This document shows positions 7,351-60,185 of a DNA stretch of 64,000 bases, in pieces. Source of the DNA: Rhodoferax sp. (lineage in GTDB: Bacteria > Pseudomonadota > Gammaproteobacteria > Burkholderiales > Burkholderiaceae_C). The notes beneath the pieces were generated by a model that saw only the letters and a list, made by a program, of their open reading frames with translations, had not been told where the DNA came from and did no database searches. The stretch covers positions 1 to 64,000 of the forward strand of contig NZ_JAAFIX010000012.1 of NCBI RefSeq assembly GCF_013297935.1. The letters run 5' to 3'. Every line of letters starts with the position of its first letter. Within the stretch, counting starts at the first letter, position 1. Position numbers and translations under genes: made by a program.

Positions 7351-7402
7351 AAATGCCCGTAACCCTCGAATATATTGTACAAGCAGCTATTGTTTTTATA
7401 GC
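7351..7402 (-). repeat. Dispersed palindromic element, intergenic copy (nudJ-mnmA)
   Basis: Read on the minus strand it begins GCTATAAAAACAATAGC and continues with CTTGTACAATAT and GAGGGTTACGGGC. It matches the eight-copy family consensus: GCTAT-N7-ATAGC hairpin, GCTTGCGCAATAT, then GGGCTAGAGGCC. It starts 2 bp after the nudJ stop codon. Confidence 0.8.
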
Positions 7403-7403
7403 G

Positions 7404-7892
7404 TCATGTGGGGTCTGTCACACTGGGGGAGGTGTGCACCATGGCCAAGGGGAAGCGTTGCCCACGCAGGTAGTCTTCCATGCACTGGAGCACCAAGGGA
7501 CTGCGGAGTCGCTCTTTGCTGGCGCGAATTTCTTCCGGCGTGAGCCAAAGCGTTCTGACGATGCCCGCATCGAGCGCGCGTCCTTCCCCAGCAGAACCCA
7601 CAGCACCGCAATAAGCAAACCGGAGGTACGTAACGTCTTCTATGCCTGTGGCCGTGGGCCGGACAAATCGCGAAAGGTACACGCCCACCAGCGCTGTGGG
7701 TTGAAACGGGTGGGCAGTTTCCTCTAGGGTTTCGCGGATGCAACCTTGCTCGGGGGACTCTCCCGGATCGAGGTGACCGGCAGGATTGTTGAGCCGCAGC
7801 CCCTCGGGGGTGTGCTCTTCGACCAATAAGAAGCGACCGTCCTGTTCGATCACTGCAGCCACCGTCACACTGGGTTTCCATCGTTCGTTCAT
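7404..7892 (-). CDS. nudJ: Nudix hydrolase, NudJ-like phosphatase
   Basis: A 162-residue Nudix protein. The Nudix box GHLDPGESPEQGCIRETLEE followed by TA (residues ~38-60) follows GX5EX7REUXEEXGU, except that the late Gly is Ala. NudJ-type enzymes hydrolyse nucleoside di- and triphosphates and the thiamin intermediate HMP-PP. The position just upstream of mnmA on the same strand supports NudJ over other Nudix families, but substrate cannot be read from sequence. The start at 7892 is divergent from pntAA. Confidence 0.85.
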   Translation of the reverse strand: MNERWKPSVTVAAVIEQDGRFLLVEEHTPEGLRLNNPAGHLDPGESPEQGCIRETLEETAHPFQPTALVGVYLSRFVRPTATGIEDVTYLRFAYCGAVGSAGEGRALDAGIVRTLWLTPEEIRASKERLRSPLVLQCMEDYLRGQRFPLAMVHTSPSVTDPT

Positions 7893-8015
7893 GCTGGATT
7901 ATGTGCATCCAGCGCAAAGGTCTTTGGCAAATGCTGCGTCTTTAGCCCTATGGAACGGAGGGAAACTCATGTAAGCTAGCTGACAGCTTGATTCCAACCT
8001 TTATAGGAGAGCCGC

Positions 8016-9143
8016 ATGCAGATAGGTGTACCCGCTGAAACACTGGCGGGCGAGACCCGAGTAGCCGTGACCCCGGAGACAGTGAAAAAACTGAAATCCC
8101 AAGGGCATACGGTGCGTATCCAAAGCGGCGCCGGCGTGGCGGCTAGCGTCACTGATGAGGCTTACCTTGCTGCCGGTGCCGAAATCACCGATGCCGCAGG
8201 TGCTTTCGGGAGCGAATTGGTCCTCAAGGTCCGCACGCCCAGCGACGCAGAAGCAGCCCTGATGCGGCCGGGCGCAACCGTGGTGGGCATGCTCAACCCG
8301 TTTGATGCCGAGGGCCTGCAACGGCTTGCCGCGGCCCAGCTCAACGCCTACGCCTTAGAGGCCGCACCCCGGACCACCCGGGCGCAGAGCATGGACGTGC
8401 TCTCCAGCCAGGCCAATATTGCGGGCTACAAGGCGGTCATGATGGCGGCTGACAAGTACCAGCGCTTTTTCCCCATGCTCATGACGGCGGCCGGCACGGT
8501 CAAGGCGGCACGCGTGGTCATTCTCGGGGTCGGTGTCGCTGGCCTGCAGGCCATCGCCACCGCCAAGCGTCTGGGGGCTGTGATTGAAGCCTCGGACGTG
8601 CGCCCGAGCGTGAAAGAGCAAGTCGAATCTTTGGGGGGCAAATTCATCGATGTGCCCTATGAGACCGATGAAGAGAAAGAAGCCGCAGTGGGTGTGGGTG
8701 GATACGCCAAGCCCATGCCCCTGAGTTGGCTGGACCGCCAGAAAGCCGAAGTGGCCAAGCGCGTGGCCCAGGCCGATGTGGTGATCAGCACGGCGCTGAT
8801 CCCCGGTCGCGCAGCGCCCACCCTGATCACCGAAGACATGGTCAAGTCCATGAAGCCCGGCTCTGTGATTGTGGATATCGCAGCGGGTAAAGGCCCCGAC
8901 GGTGGCGGGAATTGCCCTCTGTCCGAAGCAGATAAAACCGTCGTCAAACATGGCGTCACCCTGATCGGTGAGACCAACCTGCCTGCACTGGTAGCGGCAG
9001 ATGCGTCTTCCCTCTATGCCCGCAACGTGCTGGACTTCCTGAAGTTGATCATCAACAAGGAAGGCGCGCTGCACACGGACTTGGAAGACGACATCGTGGC
9101 CGCCTGCCTGGTGACCCAGGGCGGTGCTGTGCGCCGCAAATAA
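8016..9143 (+). CDS. pntAA: NAD(P) transhydrogenase subunit alpha, part 1 (PntAA)
   Basis: A 375-residue soluble NAD(H)-binding domain I of proton-pumping transhydrogenase, which couples proton influx to hydride transfer from NADH to NADP+. It has the alanine-dehydrogenase-like N-terminal domain (IGVPAETLAGETRVAVTPE) and a Rossmann segment (VVILGVGVAGLQAIATAKRLGA). The alpha subunit is split into two genes, as in Rhodospirillum and many betaproteobacteria; in E. coli it is one. The ATG at 8016 has GGAG 6 nt upstream. First gene of pntAA-pntAB-pntB. Confidence 0.96.
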   Translation: MQIGVPAETLAGETRVAVTPETVKKLKSQGHTVRIQSGAGVAASVTDEAYLAAGAEITDAAGAFGSELVLKVRTPSDAEAALMRPGATVVGMLNPFDAEGLQRLAAAQLNAYALEAAPRTTRAQSMDVLSSQANIAGYKAVMMAADKYQRFFPMLMTAAGTVKAARVVILGVGVAGLQAIATAKRLGAVIEASDVRPSVKEQVESLGGKFIDVPYETDEEKEAAVGVGGYAKPMPLSWLDRQKAEVAKRVAQADVVISTALIPGRAAPTLITEDMVKSMKPGSVIVDIAAGKGPDGGGNCPLSEADKTVVKHGVTLIGETNLPALVAADASSLYARNVLDFLKLIINKEGALHTDLEDDIVAACLVTQGGAVRRK

Positions 9144-9203
9144 GTCGCAGGCGCAATACACGCTCTCCCAATCATTCACTCACTTTCTTCAAGGAGCGAC
9201 ACC

Positions 9204-9524
9204 ATGGAAATGGTTTCCCCCACTATCCTGAATCTCATCATCTTTGTGCTGGCCATTTACGTGGGCTACCACGTTGTCTGGACCGTGACACCCGCACTGC
9301 ACACGCCTTTGATGGCGGTGACCAACGCGATTTCGGCCATCGTCATCGTGGGTGCCATGTTGGCGGCCGCGCTGACGGAAACCACCTTGGGTAAATCCAT
9401 GGGGGTGCTGGCCGTGGCGCTAGCCGCGGTCAATGTGTTCGGCGGTTTCATGGTGACCCGCCGCATGCTGGAAATGTTCAAGAAAAAAGACAAGAAAGCG
9501 GTCAGCGCAGGAGCCAAAGAATGA
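9204..9524 (+). CDS. pntAB: NAD(P) transhydrogenase subunit alpha, part 2 (PntAB)
   Basis: A 106-residue membrane protein that forms the alpha part of the proton channel (domain II). Hydrophobic helices cover residues ~4-24, ~35-58 and ~64-82, and a lysine-rich cytoplasmic tail closes it (FKKKDKKAVSAG). AAGGAG lies 9 nt before the ATG. It follows pntAA by 60 bp and overlaps pntB by 4 bp (ATGA). Confidence 0.95.
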   Translation: MEMVSPTILNLIIFVLAIYVGYHVVWTVTPALHTPLMAVTNAISAIVIVGAMLAAALTETTLGKSMGVLAVALAAVNVFGGFMVTRRMLEMFKKKDKKAVSAGAKE

Positions 9525-10957: not shown

Positions 10958-11058
10958 GGGCGCGCACCTAAGTACGGCCGCTTAAGGTAAACACCATCAG
11001 CGAGCCGTCACGACTGCGTGAAAATAGCAGGCTAACTAAAATTCCGGAGACTTAGGAC

Positions 11059-12737: not shown

Positions 12738-13475
12738 TTGATCGCGATACTGAGCGCGCTGCCCGAGGAGCAAGACGGTCTGCTGTCGTGCATGACCGGC
12801 GTGGTGCGCGTGGAGCACGGCGGGCGCACTTTTTGGCGAGGTAGCCTGAAAGAGCAGGAGGTCGTGCTGGCACTCTCCCGCATCGGCAAAGTGGCCGCTG
12901 CGACCACCGCCACTGCCCTGGTTGCCCATTTCGGAGTGCAGCGGATGCTCTTTACAGGAGTCGCCGGTGGTACCGGGCCGGGAGTGGCCGTAGGCGACGT
13001 GGTGGTAGGTAGCCACTACATGCAGCACGACATGGATGCGTCTCCTTTGTTTCCGCGCTATGAGATTCCGCTCACCGGGTGCTCGGTGCTGCCTGCCGAC
13101 CCCGCCTTGCAAGACGCTGCCTGCGCCGCGGTGCGCAAGGTGCAGCAAGCGGTCCGCAGCGAACCCTACCAAGCAAACCTGCATTGCGGCTTGATTGCCA
13201 GCGGCGACCGATTCGTGAGCTCAGGCCAAGAGGTGCACAAGCTTATGGCGGACGCTGCAGCCTCCGGCTTCTCTCCGCTGGCGGTCGAAATGGAAGGGGC
13301 GGCAGTGGCCCAAGTGTGTGCCGACTACGGCATTCCCTTTGTCGCCATCCGCACTATCTCGGACCGTGCCGACGATGTGGCCCATGTCGACTTCCCGCGG
13401 TTTGTGCGAGAAACAGCCAGCGTCTATGCACTGGCTATCGTCCGGGAGTTTTTGCGTTTGCTATCAAATAAATAG
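12738..13475 (+). CDS. mtnN: 5'-methylthioadenosine/S-adenosylhomocysteine nucleosidase
   Basis: A 245-residue nucleosidase that splits adenine from methylthioadenosine and S-adenosylhomocysteine, in the methionine salvage and activated-methyl cycle. The TTG start is chosen because IAILSALPEEQDG is the conserved N-terminus and no ATG lies nearby. Catalytic motifs are MEGAAVAQVC (substrate Glu) and ISDRADD (catalytic Asp). It lies 6 bp after fadD. Its last codons and TAG stop (LLSNK*) fall inside a dispersed palindromic element, so the C-terminus was probably reshaped by that insertion. Confidence 0.92.
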   Translation: MIAILSALPEEQDGLLSCMTGVVRVEHGGRTFWRGSLKEQEVVLALSRIGKVAAATTATALVAHFGVQRMLFTGVAGGTGPGVAVGDVVVGSHYMQHDMDASPLFPRYEIPLTGCSVLPADPALQDAACAAVRKVQQAVRSEPYQANLHCGLIASGDRFVSSGQEVHKLMADAAASGFSPLAVEMEGAAVAQVCADYGIPFVAIRTISDRADDVAHVDFPRFVRETASVYALAIVREFLRLLSNK

Positions 13476-13513
13476 CTGGGTGCATAATCGGGTAGAGGGC
13501 TGGAGCCTGAAAT
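13460..13513 (+). repeat. Dispersed palindromic element, copy at the mtnN 3' end
   Basis: It begins GCTATCAAATAAATAGC, then GGGTGCATAATCGG, GAGGGCTGGAGCC and TGAAAT, matching the family consensus with a slightly shorter middle. It overlaps the final 16 bp of mtnN, supplies its TAG stop, and ends 5 bp from the convergent corA stop. Confidence 0.85.
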
Positions 13514-13518
13514 GACAC

Positions 13519-14505
13519 CTATCGGAGCCAGCCTCGCCGGTGAAAATACCACATGGGAACGACTGCGCTGGCAATCATCAGGGCCAGAGCATAAGGGTAG
13601 CCCCAAGATTGTTTGAGCTCGGGCATGAACTCGAAATTCATGCCATACACACTGGCGATCAACGTGGGTGGCAGCAGGGCTACGCTGGCCACAGAGAAAA
13701 TTTTGATGGTTTTGTTCTGGTTGATGTTGATGAAACCCACCGTCGCATCCATCAAGAAGTTGATTTTGTCGAACAAAAACGCCGTGTGGGAGTCCAGGGA
13801 ATCAATATCCCGCAGGATTTGGCGGGCCTGCTCAAACTGCTCGGCGTTGAGCATCTTGCTGCGCATCATGAAGCTCACCGCACGTCGGGTGTCCATCACG
13901 TTGCGACGGATGCGGCCGCTCAAATCCTCATGACGCGCAATAGCGCCCAGTGCCTCGCCGGCAATCGCATCGCTCACATTGCCCGAAAGCACCTTTTTGC
14001 TGACTTTTTCGAGCTCGTCGTAAATGCCTTCCAGCGTGTCGGCGGAATACTCGGCATCCGCATCAAACAGTTTGAGGAGCACTTCTTTGGCGTCTTCGAT
14101 CAAGCCGGGTGCACGGCGGGCGCGCATGCGCAGCAGGCGGAAGACAGGCACGTCCTCATCGTGGATTGAGAACAAAACGCCTTTGCTTTTGAGGTCATCG
14201 TTGACCAAATTCAAGATAAACGCGGCCCGCACGGTGCGCGGTTCATCATCGTCCGCGATCAAAAAGTCGCTGCGGATATGCAGGTCACCGTTGTCTTCTG
14301 CGTAAAAGCGGGCGGACTCTTCGATGTCCTCGTCCATCGCATCGTCCGGGATAGACAAGCCGTAGTACTGCTTGACCCAGCGCTTTTCTTCCAGCGTGGG
14401 GGACTCCAAATCAACCCAGATGGGCTGGAATTTGGATAGCTCCTCCAGGGACTCGATTTCTTCTTGAAATAGCCGCCCGTTGGCGAGCGTAAAGATGTTG
14501 AGCAT
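13519..14505 (-). CDS. corA: Magnesium/cobalt transporter CorA
   Basis: A 328-residue inner-membrane Mg2+ channel of the CorA/MIT family. The long cytoplasmic N-terminal funnel (~1-265) is rich in acidic and helical segments. Two C-terminal membrane helices are joined by a loop, with the invariant YGMNFEFMPE signature at the pore mouth. It ends in a basic tail (FHRRGWLR). Convergent with mtnN and divergent from the MFS gene; the 195-bp region 14506-14700 upstream shows no clear leader element. Confidence 0.95.
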   Translation of the reverse strand: MLNIFTLANGRLFQEEIESLEELSKFQPIWVDLESPTLEEKRWVKQYYGLSIPDDAMDEDIEESARFYAEDNGDLHIRSDFLIADDDEPRTVRAAFILNLVNDDLKSKGVLFSIHDEDVPVFRLLRMRARRAPGLIEDAKEVLLKLFDADAEYSADTLEGIYDELEKVSKKVLSGNVSDAIAGEALGAIARHEDLSGRIRRNVMDTRRAVSFMMRSKMLNAEQFEQARQILRDIDSLDSHTAFLFDKINFLMDATVGFININQNKTIKIFSVASVALLPPTLIASVYGMNFEFMPELKQSWGYPYALALMIASAVVPMWYFHRRGWLR

Positions 14506-20990: not shown

Positions 20991-23759
20991 ATGCAAGACA
21001 AATACCAGCACCTCGACGTAGAAAAATCCGCGCAAGCCCATTGGGCGCAGCCTTTGTGGAACGGTGACACCGCCTACCGGGTCACCGAAAACACCGTGGG
21101 CGTGGACGGCAAGCCTAAGAAAAAGTTTTACGCCTGCTCGATGTTGCCCTACCCCAGCGGCAAGCTGCACATGGGCCACGTGCGCAACTACACCATCAAC
21201 GACATGCTGGCGCGCTACCTGCGCATGAACGGCCACAACGTGCTCATGCCCATGGGTTGGGACGCGTTTGGTCTGCCCGCCGAGAACGCCGCGCTCAAAA
21301 ACAAGGTGCCACCCGCCCAGTGGACCTTTGACAACATCGCCTACATGAAGGGCCAGATGCAGGCCATGGGCCTGGCCATCGACTGGAGCCGCGAAGTCGC
21401 CACTTGTGACCCACAGTACTACAAGTGGAATCAATGGCTGTTCCTGAAGATGCTCGAAAAAGGCATCGCCTACCGCAAGACCCAGGTGGTGAACTGGGAC
21501 CCGGTGGACCAGACTGTGTTGGCCAACGAGCAGGTGATTGACGGCAAAGGCTGGCGCACCGGTGCGGTGGTCGAGAAGCGCGAGATCCCCGGCTATTACC
21601 TCAAGATCACGGACTACGCGCAAGAGCTGCTGGACCATGTGCAGATGGGTAACGACAAGGCCACGCTGACCGGCTGGCCCGACCGCGTGCGCCTGATGCA
21701 GGAAAACTGGATCGGTAAAAGCGAGGGCGTACGCTTTGCGTTCACCCACGACATCAAGGATTCGACCGGCGCATTGATTGGCGACGGCCGCATGTACGTG
21801 TTCACCACCCGTGCCGACACGGTGATGGGTGTGACCTTCTGCGCCGTGGCGCCCGAACACCCCTTGGCGCTGCACGCTGCGGCGGGCAATGCCAGCCTGG
21901 CCGCGTTTCTGGAGGAGTGCAAGTCAGGCGGCACCACCGAAGCCGAACTGGCCACACAGGAGAAAAAAGGCCAGCCTACCGGCCTGTTTGTGACGCACCC
22001 GCTGACGGGCGCCCAAGTCGCCGTCTGGGCTGGCAACTATGTGCTCATGGGCTATGGCGATGGCGCCGTGATGGGCGTGCCCGCGCACGACGAACGCGAC
22101 TTCGCGTTTGCCAAGAAGTACGGCATCGAGATCAAACAAGTGGTGGTCGTAGACGGAGAAACTTTCTCGCTCGAAGCCTGGGCGGATTGGTACGGCGACA
22201 AGCAGCGCGCTGTAGCCGTGAACTCCGGCCAATACGACGGCTTGGCCTACAAGGCCGCCGTGGATGCGGTGGCTGCAGACCTGGTCGCCAAAGGCCTGGG
22301 CGAGAAGAAAACCACGTGGCGCCTGCGCGACTGGGGTGTGAGCCGCCAGCGCTACTGGGGCACACCCATCCCGATCATCCATTGCGAAGAACACGGCGCG
22401 GTGCCCGTGCCTGAAAAAGACCTGCCAGTGGTGTTGCCGATGGATTGCATTCCCGACGGCTCGGGCAACCCGCTGCACAAGCATGAAGGTTTTCACGCCG
22501 GTGTGGTCTGCCCCGTGTGCGGCAAGGCCGCGCGCCGCGAGACCGACACCATGGATACCTTTGTGGACTCGTCCTGGTATTTCATGCGCTATTGCGACCC
22601 TAAGAACGCGGAGGCGATGGTGGCTGGCGGCACGGACTACTGGATGCGCGATCAAGTGGCCGCCACCGGTGGCAGCGGCATGGACCAGTACATCGGCGGT
22701 ATCGAACACGCCATCCTGCACCTGCTTTACGCCCGCTTCTGGACCAAGGTGATGCGTGATCTGGGCCTGGTGAAGGTGGACGAGCCCTTCACCAAGCTGC
22801 TCACGCAGGGTATGGTGCTCAACCACATTTACTCCCGCAAAACCGCCAAGGGCGGCAAAGAGTATTTTTGGCCGCACGATGTGGAGCATGTGCAGGACGA
22901 GGCGGGCAAGGTGGTGGGTGCCAAGCTCATCAACCCGGTCGACAGCGCCGACGGCATGCTGCCCGTAGGCACGGCCATCGACTACGAGGGCGTGGGCACC
23001 ATGTCCAAGTCCAAGAACAACGGCGTGGACCCGCAGGAGCTCATCGCGAAATACGGCGCAGACACGGCCCGTATCTACACCATGTTCACCTCGCCCCCCG
23101 AGGCCACGCTGGAGTGGAACGACTCGGCGGTGGAAGGCAGCTACCGCTTTTTGCGCCGCGTCTGGAACTTTGGCTACAAGCTGTCTGCTATGGATTCTGT
23201 AGCTGCTCGCGCAAGCGTGGCGGGGGCTAAGAGCCTTAATGACGTGGAATTCGGCAAAGAAGCCAAGGCGCTGCGCTTGGAGATGCACACCGTGCTGAAA
23301 CAGGTGGACTTTGACTACCAGCGCATGCAATACAACACCGTGGTGTCCGGCACCATGAAGATGATCAACGCGCTGGAAGGCTTCAAGGCGCTGGACAGTG
23401 CCGGTGCTCAGGTGGCGCTGATCGAAGGCTTCGGCATCCTGCTGCGCTGCCTGTACCCGGCCACGCCGCACTTGTCGCACGCACTGTGGTCTGAGCTGGG
23501 CTATGCCTCCGCGCTGGGCGACCTGTTGGATGCGCCCTGGCCGCAAGTGGACGCAGCCGCTTTGGTGCAGGACGAGATCGAGCTGGTGCTGCAAATCAAC
23601 GGCAAGCTGCGCGGCGCGGTGCGCGTGCCGGCCGGTGCGAGCAAAGAGGCCATCGAGGCGGCCGCGCTGGCCAGCGAGGTGTTCTTGAGCCACGCGGCAG
23701 GTGCGGCGGCCAAGAAGGTCATCGTGGTGCCCGGTCGCTTGGTCAACATCGTCGTCTGA
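20991..23759 (+). CDS. leuS: Leucyl-tRNA synthetase, with an in-frame palindromic element
   Basis: A 922-residue class Ia synthetase that charges tRNA-Leu. HIGH motif variant HMGH ([13 protein letters not shown]), CP1 editing domain (GVPAHDERD), zinc-type cysteines in [17 protein letters not shown] variant MSKS ([13 protein letters not shown]), then the anticodon-binding domain. Residues ~733-750, in the variable linker before the anticodon helices, are encoded by a copy of the dispersed palindromic element. The linker looks about eight residues longer than in E. coli LeuRS, from memory. lptE follows after 5 bp. Confidence 0.97.
23187..23240 (+). repeat. Dispersed palindromic element inside leuS
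   Basis: It begins GCTATGGATTCTGTAGC, then TGCTCGCGCAAGCG and GGGGGCTAAGAGCC, TTAAT. The first base of the element is the first base of a codon. It is translated as A-M-D-S-V-A-A-R-A and onward to L-N, and the frame stays open on both sides. Confidence 0.82.
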
Positions 23760-29237: not shown

Positions 29238-30560
29238 ATGAACGCGTCCAACACCACCGAATACACCCTGGCCCTCGGTTCTCAAGCAAAAGTGGCATCA
29301 GCCCAGATGGCGCGTGCGCCGGCAGCTATTAAAAACAGAGCGCTCCGGGCGCTGGCCCGCCTGCTGCGCGAAAACACCCAGGCCCTGCAGATCGACAACG
29401 CCAAGGACATCGAGCGCGCGGTGGCCAACGGACTCTCCGGCCCCATGGTGGACCGCCTCCAGCTCACCCCCAAGGTGCTCGAAACTTGCGCCGAAGGCTG
29501 CGAGCAGCTGGCGGCCATGGCCGATGTGATCGGCGAAATCATCGGCATGAAGCAGCAGCCCAGCGGCATCCGTGTGGGGCAGATGCGGGTGCCCATTGGC
29601 GTGTTCGGCATGATTTTCGAGAGCCGGCCCAATGTGACGATTGAGGCAGCCAGCCTGTCCATCAAAAGCGGCAACGCCTGCATTTTGCGCGGCGGTTCCG
29701 AGGCCATTGACTCCAACAAGGCACTGGCCAAGCTGGTGCAGCAGGCGCTCACCGAGGCCGGCCTGCCCGCCGACGCGGTGCAGCTGGTGCAAACCACCGA
29801 CCGCGACGTGGTGGGCCAGCTGATCGCCATGCCCCAGTTTGTGGACGTGATCATTCCGCGAGGTGGCAAAGGGCTGATCGAGCGCATCAGCCGCGACGCC
29901 AAAGTACCCGTCATCAAGCACCTGGACGGCAATTGCCATACCTATGTGGACGACCCGTGCGACATCGCCATGGCGGTCAAGGTGGCGGACAACGCCAAAA
30001 CCAACAAATACAGCCCCTGCAACGCCACCGAAGGCCTGCTGGTAGCGCGCGGAGTGGCCGCGCAGTTTCTGCCACTGATCGGCGCGGTGTATGCGGCTAA
30101 GGGCGTGGAGATGCGCTGCGACCCCGAAGCGCTGGCTATTTTGGAGTCAAATAGGCCTCTAGCCCTCGCAAATACTGCGCAGGCAGCTCCTGAAATAATA
30201 GCTAAGCTGGTGCCCGCCACTGAACAGGATTGGTACGAGGAGTACCTGGCCCCGATCGTCAGCGTGAAGCTGGTGGACGGGGTGGACGAGGCGATTGCCC
30301 ATATCAACCAGTATTCATCACACCACACCGACGCCATCCTGACCACCAACCACGTGCACGCCCAGAAGTTCCTGCGCGAGGTCGATTCGGCCAGTGTCAT
30401 GGTCAACGCCAGCACCCGCTTTGCCGATGGCTTTGAATACGGCCTCGGCGCCGAAATCGGCATCAGCACCGACAAGTTCCACGCCCGGGGCCCCGTGGGC
30501 ATTGAGGGGCTGACCTCGCTGAAATATGTGGTGCTGGGGGAGGGCGAAGTGCGCAGTTGA
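29238..30560 (+). CDS. proA: Gamma-glutamyl phosphate reductase, with an in-frame palindromic element
   Basis: A 440-residue NADPH-dependent enzyme that reduces gamma-glutamyl phosphate to glutamate semialdehyde in proline synthesis. Motifs: [31 protein letters not shown], the catalytic cysteine region ([19 protein letters not shown]), and [22 protein letters not shown]. Residues ~300-322 ([20 protein letters not shown] and onward) are encoded by a copy of the dispersed palindromic element, in the loop before [17 protein letters not shown]. The enzyme is ~20 residues longer than usual, which fits. The ATG at 29238 was chosen for the family N-terminus. Confidence 0.95.
30135..30203 (-). repeat. 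Dispersed palindromic element inside proA (reverse orientation)
   Basis: Read on the minus strand it begins GCTATTATTTCAGGAGC, then TGCCTGCGCAGTATTTG, CGAGGGCTAGAGGCC, TATTT, and closes with AAAATAGC. It is the copy nearest to the full family consensus and extends ~15 bp further than the others, to a terminal GCTAT/ATAGC pair. It lies antisense to proA but keeps the proA frame open. Confidence 0.85.
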
Positions 30561-35312: not shown

Positions 35313-36530
35313 ATGCATTTTTTCAAAGACCTGAGCCTCTCAGCCTTCACGGCCGGTTTTGTAGCGGTGTTGGTGGGCTTTACCAGTTCGGTGGCCATCG
35401 TCTTTCAAGCGGCACTAGCACTGGGGGCCACGCCGGACATGGTGGCCTCCTGGATGTGGGCGCTGGGTATCGGCATGGGACTGTGTACCCTGCTGCCCTC
35501 CCTGTGGCTCAAAAAGCCGGTGATGGTGGCTTGGAGCACACCGGGCGCCGCGGTACTGGCCACCGCGGCTACGGCAGGGGGCTTCACCATGGCCGATGGG
35601 GTGGGCGCATTCATGTTGTGCGCGCTCCTGATCACGGTGGCGGGCGCCACAGGCTGGTTCGAGCGGGTGATGAACAAAATCCCTTTGTCCCTGGCATCGG
35701 CGCTCTTAGCGGGGGTTCTGGCCCGCTTCGGCTTGCAGGGCTTTGCCGCAGCGCAAACTGCGGTGCCTCTCGTGGGCTTGATGTTGGTGACCTACCTCTT
35801 GGGCAAGCGCATGGCGCCGCGCTATGCGGTTCCTTTGACCTTGCTGGTTGCTATTGTTTTTGTAGCTATCCGCGCAGAGTTCGCGCCGGCCAACATCCAT
35901 TTTGGCTTCACGACGCCGGTGCTGGTCGCGCCCGCCTTTTCGCTGGCGGCTTTCATCAGCATGTCCTTGCCGCTCTTTGTGGTGACCATGGCCTCCCAGA
36001 ATCTGCCGGGGGTGGCGGCCATTCAGGCGGCCGGTTTTGCCGACCGCCGCGCGCAGGGGGGAGATGCGGGCATCCCTGTCTCCAAAGTCATTACCCTCAC
36101 AGGGCTGATGACGCTGGTGTTGGCCCCTTTCGGTGCCTTCGCGCTCAATCTCAGCGCGATCACCGCCGCCATTTGCATGGGGCCGGAGGCGCATGCGCAG
36201 CCTGAACGGCGCTATACCGCAGCTGCGTCGTGCGGCGCCATTTATCTGGTGATCGGCCTCTTCGGGGCTGCCATTACCGGGGTGCTGACCGCCTTCCCCA
36301 AAGAGCTGGTGGCAGCCATTGCCGGCCTGGCCCTCCTCGGAACTATCGGTGGCGCCATGCACACGGCCGTGCAAGACGAGCGCAACCGCGAAGCGGCGTT
36401 GATTACTTTTCTGGTCACGCTCAGCGGCGTCGTAATAGCCGGTGTGGGCTCGGCCTTTTGGGGGGTGGTGGCGGGGGTGTTGGCACTTTTGGTGCAACAT
36501 ACTGGTCGAGTGCCTCCAAGCAAGGCTTGA
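35313..36530 (+). CDS. benE: BenE-family benzoate/aromatic acid:H+ symporter
   Basis: A 405-residue membrane protein with about 12 helices, of the benzoate transporter BenE/YdcO family. It begins [21 protein letters not shown] and carries [32 protein letters not shown], read in two parts, and [17 protein letters not shown]. No benzoate-degradation genes are near, so the true substrate is uncertain. Codons for ~A180-A188 (AIVFVAIRA) look like a decayed palindromic element within a helix. gshB follows 50 bp later. Confidence 0.85.
35850..35876 (+). repeat. Probable decayed palindromic element inside benE-like gene
   Basis: GCTATTGTTTTTGTAGC followed by TATCCGCGCA. It shares the hairpin and CGCGCA core of the family and is about two-thirds identical to the leuS copy over 42 bp, but lacks a recognisable GGGCTAGAGGCC end. 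It is read in the same codon phase as the leuS and kinase copies. Chance similarity is not excluded. Confidence 0.45.
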
Positions 36531-41476: not shown

Positions 41477-42295
41477 ATGCTGCCTGCCCCCACCACTCCC
41501 CACGCCCTGGCCAGCCCGGTCGCCTCCCGCAGCTGGTGGTGGCCGGTGGTGATTTTTGTGCTCGGTGCGCCCTTGTGGCTGCAGATCTGGGAGCCGGCCT
41601 TTTTCATGGCAGTCAACCGCTGGTGTGCTCCGGTAGTGGCGGAGTTCTGGACCGGGCTTTCCTTGCTGGGCAATGGTTGGGGCTTGCTGGCGGTGACCGC
41701 ACCCTTGCTGGTGCTGGCCCCCCGCCTGATGGTGGCCTGGTTGTGCGCAGCCCCTTTTGCGGTGCTGTTTGCCCGCACCGGAAAGTTTTTCATCGAGAGC
41801 CCGCGCCCGGCGGCCGTGCTGGACCCTGCGCAAATGCGGGTGGTGGGCGAGCTCTTGCACAACGTCTCCATGCCCTCCGGTCACACCTTGACTGCTTTTG
41901 CGGTGGCTTCCGGTATTTATTACGCGCTCACACCGGTCCAGCGCAGGCGCTTCGGTTGGTTGCTGTGGGTGCTGGCAGCCGGTGCAGGTTTGTCGCGGAT
42001 TGCGGTAGCAGCCCATTGGCCCGGGGACGTGGCAGTCGGTGCGAGTCTGGGAATTTTGTCCGGCTTGTTGGGTCACCAGCTGTGGAGTCGCCTGAGCGAG
42101 CGGCAGTTTGCAACCGGTGCCTGGGGCTTGCGGCTCGCCGCGGTCTTGGTGGCACTGTCGGTCTACCACCTCGTCACCGAAGAGCTCGATTTTCCGGAAA
42201 ATCATGTGTACCAGCAGGTGCTGGCGGTCGTGGCCGTGCTCAGTCTTCTTGCCTATGCACGTGCGGCATGGCGTTCGATGTTTAAAGAGAAATAG
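41477..42295 (+). CDS. PAP2-family membrane phosphatase
   Basis: A 272-residue protein with about six to eight membrane segments. All three PAP2 catalytic motifs are present: KFFIESPRP (KX6RP), MPSGHT and SRIAVAAHWPGD (SRX5HX3D). It removes phosphate from lipid phosphates such as undecaprenyl diphosphate or lipid A. The ATG at 41477 is 5 bp after the glycosyltransferase stop; a longer frame from 41405 overlaps it. The stop codon lies at the edge of a palindromic element. Confidence 0.88.
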   Translation: MLPAPTTPHALASPVASRSWWWPVVIFVLGAPLWLQIWEPAFFMAVNRWCAPVVAEFWTGLSLLGNGWGLLAVTAPLLVLAPRLMVAWLCAAPFAVLFARTGKFFIESPRPAAVLDPAQMRVVGELLHNVSMPSGHTLTAFAVASGIYYALTPVQRRRFGWLLWVLAAGAGLSRIAVAAHWPGDVAVGASLGILSGLLGHQLWSRLSERQFATGAWGLRLAAVLVALSVYHLVTEELDFPENHVYQQVLAVVAVLSLLAYARAAWRSMFKEK

Positions 42296-42343
42296 GGCAC
42301 TAGCCCTGGTGTTTATTGCGCAATTAGCTATCAATTAAATAGC
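42291..42343 (-). repeat. Dispersed palindromic element at the PAP2 gene 3' end
   Basis: Read on the minus strand: GCTATTTAATTGATAGC, TAATTGCGCAATAAAC, then CAGGGCTAGTGCCC, TATT. It matches the family consensus closely. The last codon and TAG stop of the PAP2 gene (GAGAAATAG) fall at its distal end. Confidence 0.85.
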
Positions 42344-42407
42344 ACATTTTGCCTTGAATGCCCTGATGCAATTCAGGGACTTGTACTCCTCTGCCATGAT
42401 CCGGCCA

Positions 42408-45906: not shown

Positions 45907-46559
45907 CGGGTCGCTCCAGGCACCGGCGCTGCTTGGTGCAGCTGGTGCCGCCGAAACGGCTGAACCTTGCCGGAGAGCCACAGCGCAATCCGGACCTCCA
46001 GGGCGTGCGTTGGCAGATAGGTCGCGGTGCTGGTGTTCAAGGCCAGCACGAGCAAGCAAGGCGCCCATCGCGAAGCCGGATGCCGCAAGGGTGTTTTCTC
46101 CAAGCGCCGCACTACCGGCAGACTGACTGCCAGCCCGAGCAGCCAAGCGGCGACCACCTCACTCACACTGTGCGCGCCCACCACCACCCGCGAGACTCCC
46201 ACCAAGAGCGCAAGCACCGCACCTAGCGGGGCACCGACATCGTGCCCCCAGCGGCCGGGCAAGCCCCGTAGCAGCAGGGGCAGAATGGCTGCGGCCAGCA
46301 GGCCGTGGCCGCTCACACCGGTGAAGTCGATGGCGGCGATGCCGATGCCCCAGCCGTAAAACAAGCACTTGCTCGTGACCGTGAGCGCCACCGCGCCCGC
46401 CATGGCCAGCACATAGTGCCGCACGGCGGCATGGGCACCACTGCGCCACAGCCCGAATGCGACCAACACAAATGCGGGAAGAAGCAGGCTCGACGAGCCG
46501 AAGTGGGTCACCGTCCACCACAGCGGCGCAATCGGCGGGTTGCTCGCGGTCTCGCTCAT
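45903..46559 (-). CDS. PAP2-like membrane protein with altered motifs
   Basis: A 218-residue protein with about five or six helices. Motif 2 is GVSGHG and motif 3 SRVVVGAHSVSE, with Glu in place of the catalytic Asp. Motif 1 (KX6RP) is incomplete: K is in KCLFYGWG but RP is absent. Activity is therefore uncertain. The ATG at 46559 overlaps the srkA-like stop by 4 bp, so the two are coupled. A longer frame from 46646 runs into the kinase gene. Confidence 0.78.
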   Translation of the reverse strand: MSETASNPPIAPLWWTVTHFGSSSLLLPAFVLVAFGLWRSGAHAAVRHYVLAMAGAVALTVTSKCLFYGWGIGIAAIDFTGVSGHGLLAAAILPLLLRGLPGRWGHDVGAPLGAVLALLVGVSRVVVGAHSVSEVVAAWLLGLAVSLPVVRRLEKTPLRHPASRWAPCLLVLALNTSTATYLPTHALEVRIALWLSGKVQPFRRHQLHQAAPVPGATR

Positions 46560-47608
46560 ACGATCAGGGGGGCGTCGTTCATGGCCTCGATCTGGTCTTC
46601 CAGCATCTGGATCTGGCCTTTCCAGTAGTCGCTCGTGCCGAACCACGGGAAGTTGACCGGGAAAATCGGATCGCTCCAGCGCCGGGCCAGCCAGGCGCTG
46701 TAGTGAATCAGGCGCAAGGTGCGCAGGGGCTCAATCAGGGCGAGCTCCATGCGGTCGAACTCGCGGAATTGCTCGTAGCCGTCCACCAGCATGCCCAGCT
46801 GCCGGGTTTGCTGCTGGCGGTCACCGCTGAGCAGCATCCAGAGGTCTTGCACCGCGGGGCCGGTGCGGGCGTCGTCCAGGTCCACAAAGTGCGGGCCGGG
46901 GCCTGCACTGGCCGCCACATCGGTGGGCGTCCAGAGAATGTTGCCGGGGTGGCAGTCCCCGTGCAGACGGAGGTGGCGTATGCCGCTCGAATTGGTCTTG
47001 TTTTGGCCTCTAGCCCGCTCCATGTCTGCGCGACCAGCTATCAAATCGATAGCTTCCTGGCAGCGCTTGCTCCACAGGGTTTGCACATCCAGCGGCACCA
47101 TGTCGTGGGACAGCAGCCACTCCATGGGCTCGGCGGCGAAGGTTTGCACATCCAGCGCCGGGCGGTGCACAAAGGGGGCCCGCGCCCCGACGGTGTGGAT
47201 GCGCGCCAGAAAGCGGCCAATCCATTCCAGCACCTCGCCGTCGTCCAGCTCCGGTGGCCGCCCGCCGCGGCGCGGGCTCACGCTGAAGCTAAAGCCCTCG
47301 AATTCGTGGAGGCTGTGCCCCTGGAACACCAGGGGGCCGACGGCGGGTATGTCGTCCGCCATCAGCTCGGCGGCAAAGTCGTGCTCTTCCTGAATTTGGG
47401 CCTTGCTCCAGCGCTCGGGCCGGTAGAACTTGGCCACCACCGGCGCGCCGTCTTCGAGCTGCACCTGGTAGACGCGGTTTTCGTACGACGACAGCGCGGT
47501 AAGCCGGCCATCGCCGCGCAGGCCCACGCTGTCCAGCGCGTCGAGCACCACGTCCGGCGTCAGGGTTTCAAAGGGGTGGGCAGCGCCGTGCGCAGTGGGG
47601 TGGGTCAT
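46556..47608 (-). CDS. srkA: SrkA/RdoA-like serine/threonine protein kinase, with an in-frame palindromic element
   Basis: A 350-residue kinase of the YihE/SrkA (APH-like) family, which in E. coli protects against stress-induced death. It begins with FETLTPDVVLDALDSVGLRG, followed by VAKFYRPERW, the catalytic loop HGDCHPGNILW and the metal motif FVDLDDA. Residues ~186-204 (A-I-D-L-I-A-G-R-A... to N-K) come from a palindromic element and sit ~8 residues before the catalytic HGD. The gene is part of a minus-strand row with a metallophosphatase and a Ser/Thr kinase-Usp fusion upstream. Confidence 0.9.
   Translation of the reverse strand: MTHPTAHGAAHPFETLTPDVVLDALDSVGLRGDGRLTALSSYENRVYQVQLEDGAPVVAKFYRPERWSKAQIQEEHDFAAELMADDIPAVGPLVFQGHSLHEFEGFSFSVSPRRGGRPPELDDGEVLEWIGRFLARIHTVGARAPFVHRPALDVQTFAAEPMEWLLSHDMVPLDVQTLWSKRCQEAIDLIAGRADMERARGQNKTNSSGIRHLRLHGDCHPGNILWTPTDVAASAGPGPHFVDLDDARTGPAVQDLWMLLSGDRQQQTRQLGMLVDGYEQFREFDRMELALIEPLRTLRLIHYSAWLARRWSDPIFPVNFPWFGTSDYWKGQIQMLEDQIEAMNDAPLIV
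46998..47053 (-). repeat. Dispersed palindromic element inside the srkA-like gene
   Basis: In gene sense it begins GCTATCGATTTGATAGC, then TGGTCGCGCAGACATG, GAGCGGGCTAGAGGCC and AAAAC. The first base is the first of a codon, as in leuS. The translated stretch A-I-D-x-I-A-x-R-A resembles the leuS stretch A-M-D-x-V-A-x-R-A. Confidence 0.85.
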
Positions 47609-55762: not shown

Positions 55763-55768
55763 GGTGGC

Positions 55769-57262: not shown

Positions 57263-57349
57263 GTGCCCATTGTGCCGCCTGTAAAGGGGCGTGCCATCTG
57301 AAAGGGTATGGAGTAAAGTGTCGGAAAAATGACATGAACAAGCTCCCCG

Positions 57350-57676
57350 GTGAACGACCCAAAAGACTCCCGCTTTTCTGAAACCGGATTCCCCTCTTTG
57401 CAGTGGGAGGATGAGGACTTGGACACGCGCCCGCTCCCCTTCAATGAGCGCCCCCTGCAAGCCCGCATTGACCATGAAATGGCCATCGTGGCGGAGCACC
57501 ATATCCGGATTGCCCTGGCTATTGAGAAGTTCTGGGGCCACCGGGACTGCGTGGAATACATCCGCACCCTGATCTTGAACGGCGGGTATTCCGATGGCAA
57601 CACCAACCGCGTGGGGTTCAAGCCGGATGTCGTCTCCGCGTTGATCAACCTCGCCGCGCTGCACCGGGTCGAGTAG
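57350..57676 (+). CDS. Conserved hypothetical protein
   Basis: A 108-residue soluble, acidic N-terminal protein. It starts at GTG 57350 (MNDPKDSRFSETGFP), with no strong ribosome site, so the start is uncertain. The second half is helical (IDHEMAIVAEHHIRIALAIEKFWG) and ends with YIRTLILNGGYSDGNT..RVGFKP, which looks like a compact fold. I do not recognise the family. Divergent from amn, and 20 bp upstream of a diguanylate cyclase, with which it may be co-transcribed. Confidence 0.7.
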   Translation: MNDPKDSRFSETGFPSLQWEDEDLDTRPLPFNERPLQARIDHEMAIVAEHHIRIALAIEKFWGHRDCVEYIRTLILNGGYSDGNTNRVGFKPDVVSALINLAALHRVE

Positions 57677-57696
57677 GTGCCACGGGAGAGCTGGCG

Positions 57697-58917
57697 ATGA
57701 ACCTGCCTCACCTGGTCGGAATTCAGCTGTTTCTCTATGCCGTGTTGTGGGCTCTGTGTGCCCGCATTCTGGTCACCGAGCGCCGTGCGGTGCTGCACTA
57801 TCTGGCTTATGCGGCCATCTCCGGGGTGTCGATCATGCTCATCAGTTGGCGGCCGCTAGGGCCTGTCTGGTGGACGCACACCGCCGCCAGTGCCGCCGGG
57901 TTGCTGGGCTTGGTGGCGGCAAGGCGCGGGGTCGAGCTCTTTTTGCAGGTGCGCCCGCGCGAGCTGGAGCATGGTCTGCTGGCGGTGGTGGGCACGGCCT
58001 GCCTGGTGTGGATTGGCCCTGATGACGCATCTTCCCGTGTCGGCCTGGTCTCCGCCCTTTCGGGGGCGCTGATGGTGGGCGCCGTGCTGAGCTGCTGGCG
58101 CGCATTGCGGCGGGAATTCGGCCTGCGCTTCAGTGTGATGGCGGCGGTGCCTATCGTTGCTATGTTCGTCATCAATGTAGTGCTCGGCTTGCGTGCCTGG
58201 AGTGGCCAGACGCTGGTGGCCGAAGGTAGCGGCATGCCCCAGGCGGTGACCTGGACGGTGACCCTGGTGTCCGCAGCAGCATTCAACTTTCTGTTTTTGT
58301 TTTTGCTCGGTTTGCGCATGCACCAGAGCCTGCACCGCTTAGCGACGCAGGACCCCCTCACCGGCCTGCTGAACCGGCGTGGCATGCAAACGCTTTTGCA
58401 GTCGGAGTGGATGCGGGGCAAGCGCTACAGCGCGCCGTTTTCGGTAATCAGCCTCGATGTGGACCACTTCAAACGGGTGAACGATGAGCATGGGCACGAT
58501 GGTGGCGACCGCGTGCTGGTCGCCGTTGCCGCCATGCTGCGTCAACATGTCCGGGAAACTGATCGCGTGGCACGCATGGGCGGCGAAGAGTTTCTGGTGC
58601 TGATGCCCGGCACCCGCGCCGAAGTTGAAGGCGTTGCGCTGGCAACCCGCTTGCGGGAAGCCCTGAGTCGCACCCCCATTGCAGCCGACACCGGAGCGCG
58701 TATTCCGGTGACCGCGAGTTGGGGCGTCTCGGGCATCCTGCCGCAGGATCAAGGTGCGGATGATGTGCTGCGCCGTGCTGACGAGGCGCTCTACCAAGGC
58801 AAGCGCAGCGGGCGCGACAAGGTGGTGTTATTCGGCTTGCAAGACATCACGCCCGGCCACGGCGCAGTCCGCACAGAGGCAGGCCAAGCCCCGGGCACCG
58901 GCGGGGATCCGGCTTAG
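57697..58917 (+). CDS. Membrane-bound diguanylate cyclase
   Basis: A 406-residue protein. About six membrane helices cover residues ~5-205, with no known sensor motif. A GGDEF domain follows: QDPLTGLLNRRGMQ, SLDVDHFKRVNDEHGHDGGD, active-site GGEEF at 295-299, I-site RETD five residues before it, and YQGKRSGRDKV. It should make c-di-GMP with product inhibition. The 3' end, including a Gly/Pro-rich tail, overlaps a convergent Cys-rich gene by 90 bp. Confidence 0.93.
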   Translation: MNLPHLVGIQLFLYAVLWALCARILVTERRAVLHYLAYAAISGVSIMLISWRPLGPVWWTHTAASAAGLLGLVAARRGVELFLQVRPRELEHGLLAVVGTACLVWIGPDDASSRVGLVSALSGALMVGAVLSCWRALRREFGLRFSVMAAVPIVAMFVINVVLGLRAWSGQTLVAEGSGMPQAVTWTVTLVSAAAFNFLFLFLLGLRMHQSLHRLATQDPLTGLLNRRGMQTLLQSEWMRGKRYSAPFSVISLDVDHFKRVNDEHGHDGGDRVLVAVAAMLRQHVRETDRVARMGGEEFLVLMPGTRAEVEGVALATRLREALSRTPIAADTGARIPVTASWGVSGILPQDQGADDVLRRADEALYQGKRSGRDKVVLFGLQDITPGHGAVRTEAGQAPGTGGDPA

Positions 58918-59058
58918 CGCCTCGGCGCTGAAATTTACCTGTGTGCACCAGCACGGGCCTTGGGGCTCGCCGGTGGTTTTGGCCAGCTCCATGGCACACA
59001 GGTTGGCCTTGCCGCACACAGGGCACACTTCAGGGTTCAGCGTCGGCAGGGCTTTCAT
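58828..59058 (-). CDS. Cysteine-rich CWC family protein
   Basis: A 76-residue protein with eight or so cysteines. [15 protein letters not shown] and CLCADC match the Cys_rich_CWC family, presumably zinc-binding. The ATG at 59058 (MKALPTLNPE) was chosen over upstream codons that overlap the divergent CYTH gene. Its last 90 bp are antisense to the end of the diguanylate cyclase, an unusually long convergent overlap. Confidence 0.85.
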   Translation of the reverse strand: MKALPTLNPEVCPVCGKANLCAMELAKTTGEPQGPCWCTQVNFSAEALSRIPAGARGLACLCADCAVAGRDVLQAE

Positions 59059-59110
59059 GGTGTGGGCAGTGTAGCCCCAGGCCGGCCACGCCGCACACCA
59101 GGAGTACACG

Positions 59111-59575
59111 ATGGGCATAGAGATCGAACGCAAGTTTTTAGTGCAGGGCATGGCGTGGCGCAACGGGAGCGGAGTGCTCTACCGGCAGGGTTACCTCAAC
59201 CGCGACAAGGCGCGCACCGTGCGGGTGCGTATTGCGGGGGATGCCGCTTTTCTCACCATCAAGGGCCAAAGCACCGGCGCCACCCGCGCCGAGTTTGAAT
59301 ACCCGGTGCCCCTGCAGGATGCACAGGCGCTGCTGCCCCTGTGCGACGGCCCGCTGATTGATAAAACCCGCTACATCGTGCTGCATGCCGGCCACCGCTG
59401 GGAGGTAGACGAATTTGCCGGTGACAACGCAGGCTTGGTGGTGGCCGAGTTGGAGTTGACCTCAGAAGACGAGGCCTTTGAAGCGCCCCCATGGCTGGGC
59501 GAAGAAGTGACGCACGATGCGCGCTATTTCAACTCCAATTTGGCCGCGCACCCATTTTGCAAGTGGCACCGATAA
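59111..59575 (+). CDS. CYTH domain protein (triphosphate-binding)
   Basis: A 154-residue single-domain CYTH protein. The N-terminal ExExK motif is EIERK (residues 4-8), with RVRIAGDAAFLTIKG, RAEFEYPVP, DKTRYIVLHAGHRWEVDEF and VVAELELTSEDE forming the tunnel of acidic and basic residues. Members act as inorganic triphosphatases, and some class IV adenylate cyclases share the fold. Without a CHAD domain, triphosphatase is most likely. It follows the divergent CWC gene and is convergent with the cytochrome gene. Confidence 0.9.
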   Translation: MGIEIERKFLVQGMAWRNGSGVLYRQGYLNRDKARTVRVRIAGDAAFLTIKGQSTGATRAEFEYPVPLQDAQALLPLCDGPLIDKTRYIVLHAGHRWEVDEFAGDNAGLVVAELELTSEDEAFEAPPWLGEEVTHDARYFNSNLAAHPFCKWHR

Positions 59576-59581
59576 ATAGCA

Positions 59582-60055
59582 CTAGGGCGTTGCTGGCAGC
59601 GACATGACCCACTGCGCCATCTGCTGCGCCTGGGCCTCGCTGAGCTGCGGGTGGCGGGGCATCAAGGCCCGGCCCCACTCGCCAGCGCCCCCGTTGCGAA
59701 TTTTGCCGGCCAGGTAGTTCACCGCATCGGGGCGACTCTGGTAGCGGGCCGAGATTTGTTGAAATGCCGGGCCCACATAACGCCGGTCCACCCCATGGCA
59801 GCGCATGCAGTCTGACGCGTTGACTGCCGCAAGGCCGGCGGCCAGTGCCGCAGCGGGCGGCGTCGGGGCGGCTAAGTCGCCAGGGCTACTTGCCGACACG
59901 GTGGTGCTCTGAACCGTTGGGTTCGGCGCTTTATCGGCCTGCAGGGTGCGCCAGCCCACAATCAACATGCCCGCCACGACCACCAACACCGCAAGGATGA
60001 GTGCAGCGGCAAGCCAACGCGGGCGGTGGGGTGGGGTGTCGTCTTCCGGGTGCAT
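59582..60055 (-). CDS. Membrane-anchored c-type cytochrome
   Basis: A 157-residue protein. A short cytoplasmic tail (MHPEDDTPPHRPRW) and one helix (~15-38) anchor a Pro/Ala/Ser linker and a cytochrome c domain with heme motif CMRCH (~residue 84) and a distal Met in RALMPRHPQLSE. GAGG lies 8 nt before the ATG at 60055; an ATG at 60076 lacks a site. Similar single-heme proteins serve as electron carriers or oxidase partners. Confidence 0.88.
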   Translation of the reverse strand: MHPEDDTPPHRPRWLAAALILAVLVVVAGMLIVGWRTLQADKAPNPTVQSTTVSASSPGDLAAPTPPAAALAAGLAAVNASDCMRCHGVDRRYVGPAFQQISARYQSRPDAVNYLAGKIRNGGAGEWGRALMPRHPQLSEAQAQQMAQWVMSLPATP

Positions 60056-60130
60056 GTTCAACGCCTCATCAATCAAAGCCGAGAGTGTCGCGCGAAAGCT
60101 ATTGCTGGGTGAGGCGCGGGTTTTTAAGTG

Positions 60131-60185
60131 CCTAATCGGCCTCTAGCCCTCGTAGATATTGCGCAAGCAGCTACTAAAAACGTAG
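60131..60185 (-). repeat. Dispersed palindromic element, intergenic copy (glcB-cytochrome)
   Basis: Read on the minus strand: GCTACGTTTTTAGTAGC, TGCTTGCGCAATATCTA, CGAGGGCTAGAGGCC, GATTAGG. With the proA copy it best defines the consensus. It lies 24 bp after the glcB stop and 75 bp before the cytochrome start. Confidence 0.88.

Follow-up and report, generated by a model that had tools for sequence, protein, structure and literature searches.

The eight dispersed repeat copies in the window (the whole 64-kb stretch of DNA analysed here) fit a new REP-like family of non-autonomous elements, which was probably copied in the past by a REP-associated tyrosine transposase (RAYT) and is now likely static in this genome. 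A sequence-only reading of the same DNA had described about eight palindromic elements of ~54 bp. All eight copies are real and are matched by R1, a profile model built from 30 copies of the repeat, with E-values from 1e−19 to 5e−5 in 64 kb, the copies at 30140 and 60124 (two of the eight) being part of its training set. The unit, however, is ~66 bp and not 54 bp long, because a weakly conserved tail comes after GGCC, and the alignment of the 30 copies displays conserved sequence rather than a strong palindrome: the exact GCTAT-N7-ATAGC hairpin is present in four of the eight window copies, and its fourth pair is formed in 14 of 30. The layout is GCTAY-N7-RKAG-CTNCTNGCGCA-N10-GGGCTAGAGGCC plus the weak tail. 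Its head contains the opposed tetranucleotides CTAY and RKAG, one of which precedes an imperfect hairpin with conserved mismatches. At positions 17–20 of 69 copies, the head reads ATAG in 38, GTAG in 14, GGAG in 13 and otherwise in four. A second helix is paired in 63–66% of cells, again with conserved mismatches, and no covariation was seen with RNAalifold and pair counts in 30 and then 69 copies. Terminal inverted repeats, a classical MITE trait, were not seen by eye in the alignment of copies, and no Rfam family matched the window at gathering score.

The suggestion of hundreds of copies per genome is borne out by scanning with R1, which detects 69 copies, far beyond the initial eight, in 464 kb of this genome (six of them training copies), extrapolating to ~540 per genome. 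The core pattern with up to three mismatches has 49 matches genome-wide versus none for the reversed pattern, and a weight matrix gives 63 sites with scores of 20 or above, versus none in reversed sequence. The 150 candidates scored, among 1931, all have E-values ≤4.3e−9. The repeat is present in 54 of 200 family genomes and in 20 of 41 genus genomes, those with zero or one match being classed as element-poor. The genera listed with the repeat belong to the Comamonadaceae, and the scan supports the occurrence in this family that the sequence-only reading had mentioned.

The proposed mobiliser, a RAYT, has a chromosomal gene in this genome, and the case for it is mixed: the gene is linked to the repeat by position, at its 3′ flank, but the encoded protein has Phe in place of the catalytic Tyr and scores 32.8 against an NCBIfam cut-off of 80. 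Judged by its sequence, it looks inactive. The RAYT of G214 retains the tyrosine, and that of G125 passes NF047646 (REP_Tyr_transpos; 88 vs 80). Among family genomes, a local matrix score of at least 20 (a cut chosen after the scores were known) was found on the RAYT 3′ flank in 21 of 47 carriers vs 2 of 26 non-carriers (Fisher p 0.0013), compared with 2/47 and 1/26 upstream of RAYT and 0/47 and 0/26 farther downstream. With the cut at 15, the counts are 42/47 and 10/26 on the 3′ flank, and 8/47 and 4/26 upstream. The only input to the matrix was a set of 30 dispersed copies from this genome. Within the genus, 16 element-rich genomes have flank scores of 17.5–51.8, all above the 11.5–16.9 of 19 element-poor genomes (Mann–Whitney p 2.6e−7); the margin is narrow, the lowest element-rich flank being 17.5 vs a background of up to 16.5 upstream of RAYT. 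Several RAYT-side matches agree in orientation and register, and start at model position 10. In 5 of 60 loci, the RAYT stop is followed immediately by an R1 element; in a set of 20 loci that includes this genome's, R1 has no match.

Loci of the family sample were hand-picked from the listed matches and represent 47 of 54 carriers and 26 of 146 other genomes; outside it are G038, G095 and G196, three genomes with no RAYT match (G040, G131, G163) and three in which the frame was not found (G009, G076, G149). The genus count comprises 35 genomes, with G125 added from the family sample; outside it are G222, G226, G231, G236 and a second G214 locus (frame not found), G202 and G230 (element-rich, partial RAYT matches only) and G210 (no match). 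RAYT presence as such is useless as a predictor of the element, because RAYT is found in 189 of the 200 family genomes (a Pfam Y1_Tnp search found 131). Element carriers with no RAYT match are G040, G163 and G131, which are 74%, 70% and 87% complete, respectively. On the RAYT tree the label changes just five times, once on well supported branches, which leaves few independent events to account for the split, and a test on independent pairs had too few pairs for significance. RAYT genes have further inverted repeats at their flanks; these carry a GGGGTCAGA-type motif and bear no relation to the element. As a dispersed family these terminal repeats were rejected: three patterns taken from relatives, from which the RAYT flank of this genome differs somewhat, had no matches with up to one mismatch in 464 kb.

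Genes are under-represented among copy sites relative to chance. Using genes from a home-made codon-usage caller, unchecked against annotation, 22 of 69 copies lie within called genes, as compared with 85% of random 63-bp windows; the remaining 47 are intergenic or at gene edges, and 14 of 15 such edges are 3′ ends. Of the gaps between genes, a copy occupies 11 of the 22 convergent ones, 27 of the 156 tandem ones and 1 of the 59 divergent ones. Four window copies lie between genes or at gene ends. The copy at 7341..7404 (− strand, 34.4 bits) lies behind a NUDIX gene (7404–7892, −), and the sole relative aligned, G200, has an element at the equivalent place. The copy at 13457..13521 (+, 21.7 bits), between convergent genes, extends to the stop of a gene called at 12738–13475 and is also held by G200, G206 and G233. 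The copy at 42281..42345 (−, 48.6 bits), at and behind the end of a gene called at 41477–42295, is shared with these three and G219. The last, at 60124..60187 (−, 65.6 bits), follows the malate synthase G gene, and its site is empty in G206 and G233.

Such a distribution could also be expected if selection maintained the repeat as a 3′-end signal, either a terminator or an RNA stabiliser, with mobility minor or long past. We consider this unlikely, although several observations agree with it. The 45 non-genic copies assigned to gaps divide into 15 convergent, 29 tandem and one divergent, those in tandem gaps lying a median of 10 nt behind the upstream stop; in place of the malate synthase copy, G206 and G233 show a terminator-like hairpin; and at locus L135:7695 the long second stem of the copy is maintained in relatives through paired changes. 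Furthermore, in 45 pairs at 15 sites (interval within 10 bp of copy length), motif positions are more alike than the remainder at all nine non-genic orthologous sites and show no extra conservation at two of six genic sites. Since the alignment used the best matrix offset, it leans slightly towards motif positions; we infer weak constraint on the motif after its spread. Against a 3′-end signal, the mean RNA fold z-scores of 41 copies on the two strands (−1.1 and −1.4) are no better than that of 103 element-free 3′ gaps (−1.3), and TTTT follows 10 of 41 copies on either strand, for which reasons an intrinsic terminator was rejected. Moreover, in-frame genic copies do not fit such a signal, and according to the REP passages of PMC3733652, a preference for 3′ ends is shared by REPs in general and may result from purging elsewhere.

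One antisense frame is used by 13 of the 22 genic copies, and among the 15 genic copies of at least 20 bits, ten are in antisense frame 0, three in sense frame 2 and two in sense frame 0. The favoured antisense frame, encoding an Ala/Pro-rich peptide, is open in 33 of 54 copies. Openness alone cannot account for the preference, because the most often open sense frame (39/54) is little used (3/15). In proA (29238..30560, +, start as called; Pfam Aldedh, best PDB match gamma-glutamyl phosphate reductase), the copy at 30140..30203 (−, 66.0 bits) lies in frame and antisense to the gene. The interval measures 104 bp here vs 62 bp in 10 of 18 relatives, in which the site is empty, so that the gene has a net gain of 14 codons, visible as an insert relative to Burkholderia ProA (4ghk). 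Copies of this kind account for part of the in-frame length variation among orthologous proteins of these bacteria, proA being one case. In leuS (20991..23759, +; Pfam tRNA-synt_1_2, matching LeuRS chains), the in-frame copy at 23185..23249 (+, 33.5 bits) coincides with equal length in G200, G206 and G233 and with a product a few residues longer than Neisseria LeuRS. The YihE/SrkA-like kinase gene (46556..47608, −; Pfam APH, 1zyl E-value 5.6e−93) contains an in-frame copy at 46996..47053 (−, 28.7 bits), at which six of seven relatives have the same length and E. coli YihE (1zyl) is shorter by ~12 residues. A weak partial match of 28 nt in proA (29315..29342, −, 12.6 bits; E 0.005 in 64 kb, 0.036 in 464 kb), where coding length is constant across the 11 relatives aligned, may be due to chance.

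These in-frame copies recall the Rickettsia palindromic elements (RPEs), which are ~150 bp long and occur in frame in unrelated genes, as described in the relevant part of PMC10969869. The repeat could accordingly be an RPE-like selfish sequence specialised for coding genes and moved by a mobiliser other than RAYT. The share of genic copies (22/69), the single frame used by ten of the 15 stronger ones and the codons gained in proA agree with this reading, to which we nonetheless give little probability: genes are avoided, the element is tied to the RAYT flank, and some RPEs are themselves classed among REPs in the sections of PMC3733652 considered here. Compared by description, the two systems share in-frame copies within protein genes (proA here) but differ in length, and only about one-third of the copies here are genic.

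Empty sites in relatives, proA being one, support insertion, as opposed to shared gene ancestry, at four sites, in agreement with the sequence-only reading; the copy in benE is an exception. The element-like stretch in benE (35313..36530, +; Pfam BenE E-value 1.6e−124) at 35848..35903 (+, 19.1 bits) causes no length change. By weight matrix it scores 23.6 in this genome, up to 39 in relatives and −17 in G208. BenE had no PDB match and the matches listed in its protein search include near relatives only, so distant genomes were used for comparison, and no insert was seen relative to 16 distant sequences. From these comparisons we conclude that the benE copy is not an insertion. Most copies tested are old, at least one relative also holding the element at 20 of 23 sites. 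At L134:5303, for instance, G214 and G125 also hold it (R1 matches in L265 and L266), and the site is not empty. The net length change amounts to +42 in proA, to +21 after the malate synthase G gene, to +47 at L125:10551 and to 0 in benE, none equal to the unit length, and no target duplication, another classical MITE trait, was seen by eye at empty sites, where junctions are blurred by later indels, since the relatives are 10–25% divergent in sequence. Although these small changes would suit copies that overwrite rather than insert, by strand exchange or template switching with little or no change in length, we regard this as very improbable because L134:8951 differs from empty G228 by +86, exceeding the unit, the same divergence obscures the junctions, and the benE copy is weak, synonymous shuffles giving ~1.2 sites of at least 20 per 411 kb of coding DNA. 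There is a slightly better, still small, chance that RAYT-linked single-strand copying overwrites target bases, sometimes at constant length. If true, conserved protein genes could have their interior rewritten by a selfish sequence, a possibility suggested by the copy in benE.

The most probable scenario remains past copying by RAYT. The chromosomal RAYT gene, which lies in front of gltB with an element piece in its 3′ flank, would be the past mobiliser and may have copied the element around the genome via single-stranded DNA. Insertion would have left the target unduplicated and often have cost it some of its bases. Copies would then have survived at low-harm places, namely, just behind stop codons or in frame in tolerant protein parts, in the latter case mostly antisense, in the frame encoding the Ala/Pro-rich peptide, and the motif may later have stayed under weak constraint. 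Because RAYT has degenerated in this genome, the population is probably no longer moving. An abundant Comamonadaceae repeat is now named, measured and tied by position to a RAYT locus. One genus offers a natural contrast between many and no elements and between intact and degenerate RAYT, which makes REP spread, persistence and stalling directly testable.

The earlier statement that no formal description exists was nearly right. The literature comparison, which included term matches within parts of PMC2817692, PMC12306157, PMC6006769, PMC2755013 and PMC5374385, yielded no description of the full element among the matches listed. In 2017, however, its Polaromonas form was very likely printed as an unnamed pair of motifs, ATAGCT(N)22CAAAAG, with 125 copies in Polaromonas naphthalenivorans, 34 of them between convergent genes and 18 in genes, Rhodoferax ferrireducens T118 being named as the genome with most pairs (PMC5217627). 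In the passages concerned, that paper gives two hexamers; it describes neither a complete unit nor a family, and includes no transposase and no analysis of in-frame copies. The pair has no matches in this genome and five others of the eight genomes searched, and one in G200 (control, one). In Polaromonas sp. A23, through which the two were compared, seven of eight pair matches end in AAGGGCAAAAG, the counterpart of GAGGGCTAGAG in this genome, and four of eight have GCGC at the expected place; the sequences make it very likely that the pair is the same element in register.

Among known systems, the closest comparison is with the GTAG class of REPs and their RAYTs, for which we used the traits (including REPtrons) given in the corresponding sections of PMC3733652. 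Common to both are scattered copies in the hundreds, above the 100 per genome expected of REPs, a bias for 3′ ends and convergent gaps, occasional stop codons within the repeat and a number of copies inside genes; an ATAG/GTAG/GGAG head next to an imperfect hairpin and an element piece at the RAYT gene are less clear likenesses. The present family differs in its length (~66 bp vs 20–40 for REPs), in its weak, non-covarying palindrome, in a head that is mostly ATAG, and in that the element is found 3′ of RAYT, whose flanks otherwise carry GGGGTCAGA-type inverted repeats. The latter recall TIRYT genes, which carry GGGGWSAS terminal repeats according to the same sections (PMC3733652): the flanks of many RAYT loci here fit this consensus. 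Unlike in TIRYTs, the dispersed element here is a second element, unrelated to the terminal repeats.

The dispersed element is a real, abundant, REP-like family, ordinary in kind; it makes a good natural test system and includes one odd copy. Alignment of 30 genome copies picked by pattern gave the consensus AATTGCTATNAAATTAATAGCTGCTTGCGCAATATCTACGAGGGCTAGAGGCCNATTTGNC; with the weak tail that comes after it, the unit measures about 66 bp. A sequence-only profile model built from these copies (R1) detected at least 150 copies in the genome (weakest E-value among the best 150, 4.3e-9). Within the window and a further 400 kb of stretches it found 69 copies at E <= 0.05; at this density of one per 6.7 kb, the 3.61 Mb genome would carry about 540. 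In these 464 kb, 63 sites reached a score of at least 20 with a weight matrix derived from the same 30 copies; the reversed sequence gave no such site. The eight places in the window assigned to one family by the sequence-only reading indeed match one another, both in sequence comparison and with R1.

In the alignment of 30 copies, the strongest conservation is found, in order, in GCTAY, RKAG, CTNCTNGCGCA and GGGCTAGAGGCC. The RKAG head reads ATAG in 38 of 69 copies, GTAG in 14, GGAG in 13 and otherwise in four. GCTAY is the inverse of the head plus a C, so that two heads are opposed across seven bases. The stretch 3′ of RKAG can form an imperfect helix with GGGCTAGAGG, three pairs of which are mostly mismatched, and pair counts revealed no covariation in either 30 or 69 copies. 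The term palindromic, used for the element before, therefore fits only in part. A long, near-perfect second stem, in which species differ by paired changes, sets L135:7695-7757 and its orthologs apart from most copies.

A simple gene caller, trained on 82 frames, called 424 genes (88.5% of the sequence coding). By its calls, 32 of the 69 copies fall between genes, 15 on a gene edge and 22 within a gene; random windows fall into these classes at 8%, 7% and 85%. Among copies of at least 35 bits, 8 of 34 are genic, and 14 of the 15 edge copies lie at the 3′ end. Among gaps of at least 50 bp, a copy is present in half of the convergent ones (11 of 22), in 27 of 156 tandem gaps and in a single divergent gap out of 59; two copies had no assignable gap. 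In tandem gaps, the median distance from the upstream stop to the copy is 10 nt. Comparable placement habits are known for REPs generally (PMC3733652). In this genome and two relatives, the copy at L133:10039-10100 lies directly behind a terminator-like hairpin, whose T run doubles as the loop of the first hairpin in the element. Also noted were a 135-bp direct repeat (window positions 1-135 and 772-906, 98% identity) within a long open frame and a 1.5-kb stretch (L124:15526-17062), parts of which match relatives on both strands, perhaps a further repeat or array.

Genic copies of at least 20 bits (n=15) use antisense frame 0 in ten cases, sense frame 2 in three and sense frame 0 in two. Of the 54 copies of at least 55 bp, 33 have the first of these frames open, 39 the second and 5 the third; openness thus accounts for part of the choice, not for the antisense preference. 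In proA (copy at 30140) the antisense frame translates to a 21-residue peptide. The site interval is 104 bp in this genome and, among 18 relatives, 104 to 128 bp in seven, exactly 62 bp in ten and 59 bp in one; Burkholderia ProA likewise lacks the element segment, and the net gain from the copy is therefore 14 codons. The kinase at 46996 is longer at the copy than E. coli YihE, and LeuRS (copy at 23185) is slightly longer there than Neisseria LeuRS. The benE stretch at 35848 has constant length in all 16 aligned relatives, motif-free ones included. No insert was seen against 16 distant BenE sequences: over this part ten match the length exactly, three lack one residue and three are longer. By the weight matrix, the site scores as high as 39 in relatives. 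On the other side, the copy in this genome is weak (23.6), and synonymous-codon shuffling produced about 1.2 sites scoring at least 20 per 411 kb of coding DNA. The benE copy is the odd one of the family.

Orthologous comparison covered 23 sites with at least one aligned relative. Clear empty states were found at four: 30140 (relatives G200, G206, G219 and G229), 60124 (G206 and G233), L125:10551 (G206) and L134:8951 (G228). The net length differences from the empty state (+42, +21, +47 and +86) never equal the unit length. In 20 of the 23 cases one or more relatives exceed a score of 15, and most copies are therefore older than the divergence of these species. This leaves 60124, L125:10551 and L137:7191, the last compared with a single relative, which lacks the element and has poorly aligned flanks. 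Low scores occur in single relatives at 35848 (G208) and L133:4251 (G200), and in six of seven at 29315. Behind the malate synthase G gene (60124-60187; L283 and L284), G206 and G233 have, instead of the element, a GC-rich hairpin between A and T runs, resembling an intrinsic terminator. At nine non-genic orthologous sites, identity is 76% (371/486) for well conserved positions and 56% (181/324) for poorly conserved ones, in the same direction at all nine; genic sites give 82% (595/729) and 67% (328/486), with four of six in that direction, the offset being that of the best matrix score, which leans slightly to motif positions. These comparisons suggest that the element is under weak constraint, or is repeatedly rewritten, after insertion. 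The proA alleles do not fit the RAYT tree simply: this genome is filled, its nearest RAYT relatives (G200, G219, G229) are empty. Gene exchange or loss is the likely history of this site.

R1 matched 54 of 200 family genomes and 42 of 141 genera at E <= 1e-5; in the genus, 20 of 41 genomes match, two of them once only. A scan of named genomes, which is no survey, returned at least 116 matching stretches. Rhodoferax predominates among the 80 listed, which also include Polaromonas, Variovorax, Giesbergeria, Simplicispira, Curvibacter, Hylemonella and less resolved genera.

The family is probably of RAYT origin. RAYT occurs in 189 of 200 family genomes, so its mere presence is uninformative, unlike its 3′ flank; in many of these genomes it precedes a gltB-like gene. 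An R1 copy begins at the RAYT stop, in a single orientation, at 5 of 60 loci (L104, L106, L109, L114, L200), four starting at model position 10 or 11; R1 found no match at 20 further RAYT loci, this genome's included. The RAYT 3′ flank reaches a local matrix score of at least 20 in 21 of 47 carriers compared with 2 of 26 non-carriers. In the genus, scores run from 17.5, near background, to 51.8 in the 16 element-rich genomes examined, and from 11.5 to 16.9 in the 19 others. The piece common to flank and element is often just GCTATNAATTTTGATRTGTCCC, the left half of which is the counterpart of the element's first hairpin. The RAYT tree shows five changes of the element label, one on well supported branches, and phylogeny therefore weakens the association. 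Inverted GGGGTCAGA-type repeats frame RAYT genes at L102-L121 and other loci; patterns derived from them had no matches in 464 kb of this genome. One family genome (G015, L090) has 18 Y1_Tnp matches, several equal in score and some partial; most others have one or few.

The RAYT of this genome (G000:C23:302447-303124) is 48% identical to that of relative G125 and, with a score of 32.8, falls below the NCBIfam cut-off of 80, which the RAYT of G125 passes with 88. At the position aligned with the catalytic tyrosine of E. coli TnpA-REP (Tyr115), this genome, G206, G233 and G228 have phenylalanine and G200, G219 and G229 still tyrosine; all seven form one long-branched clade. The tyrosine is also missing in three element-poor genomes (0 or 1 match: G205, G213, G217). 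From these sequences we infer that the element has probably lost its mobility in this genome.

Among the papers listed by literature searches, none showed a description of the whole element. PMC5217627 describes ATAGCT(N)22CAAAAG, counted 125 times in Polaromonas naphthalenivorans, and gives Rhodoferax ferrireducens T118 as richest in motif pairs. In Polaromonas sp. A23 this pattern has eight matches, seven ending in AAGGGCAAAAG, versus GAGGGCTAGAG in this genome. Judged by sequence, the Polaromonas motif pair is very likely the same element, and thus the family has probably been seen in print before, without being recognised.
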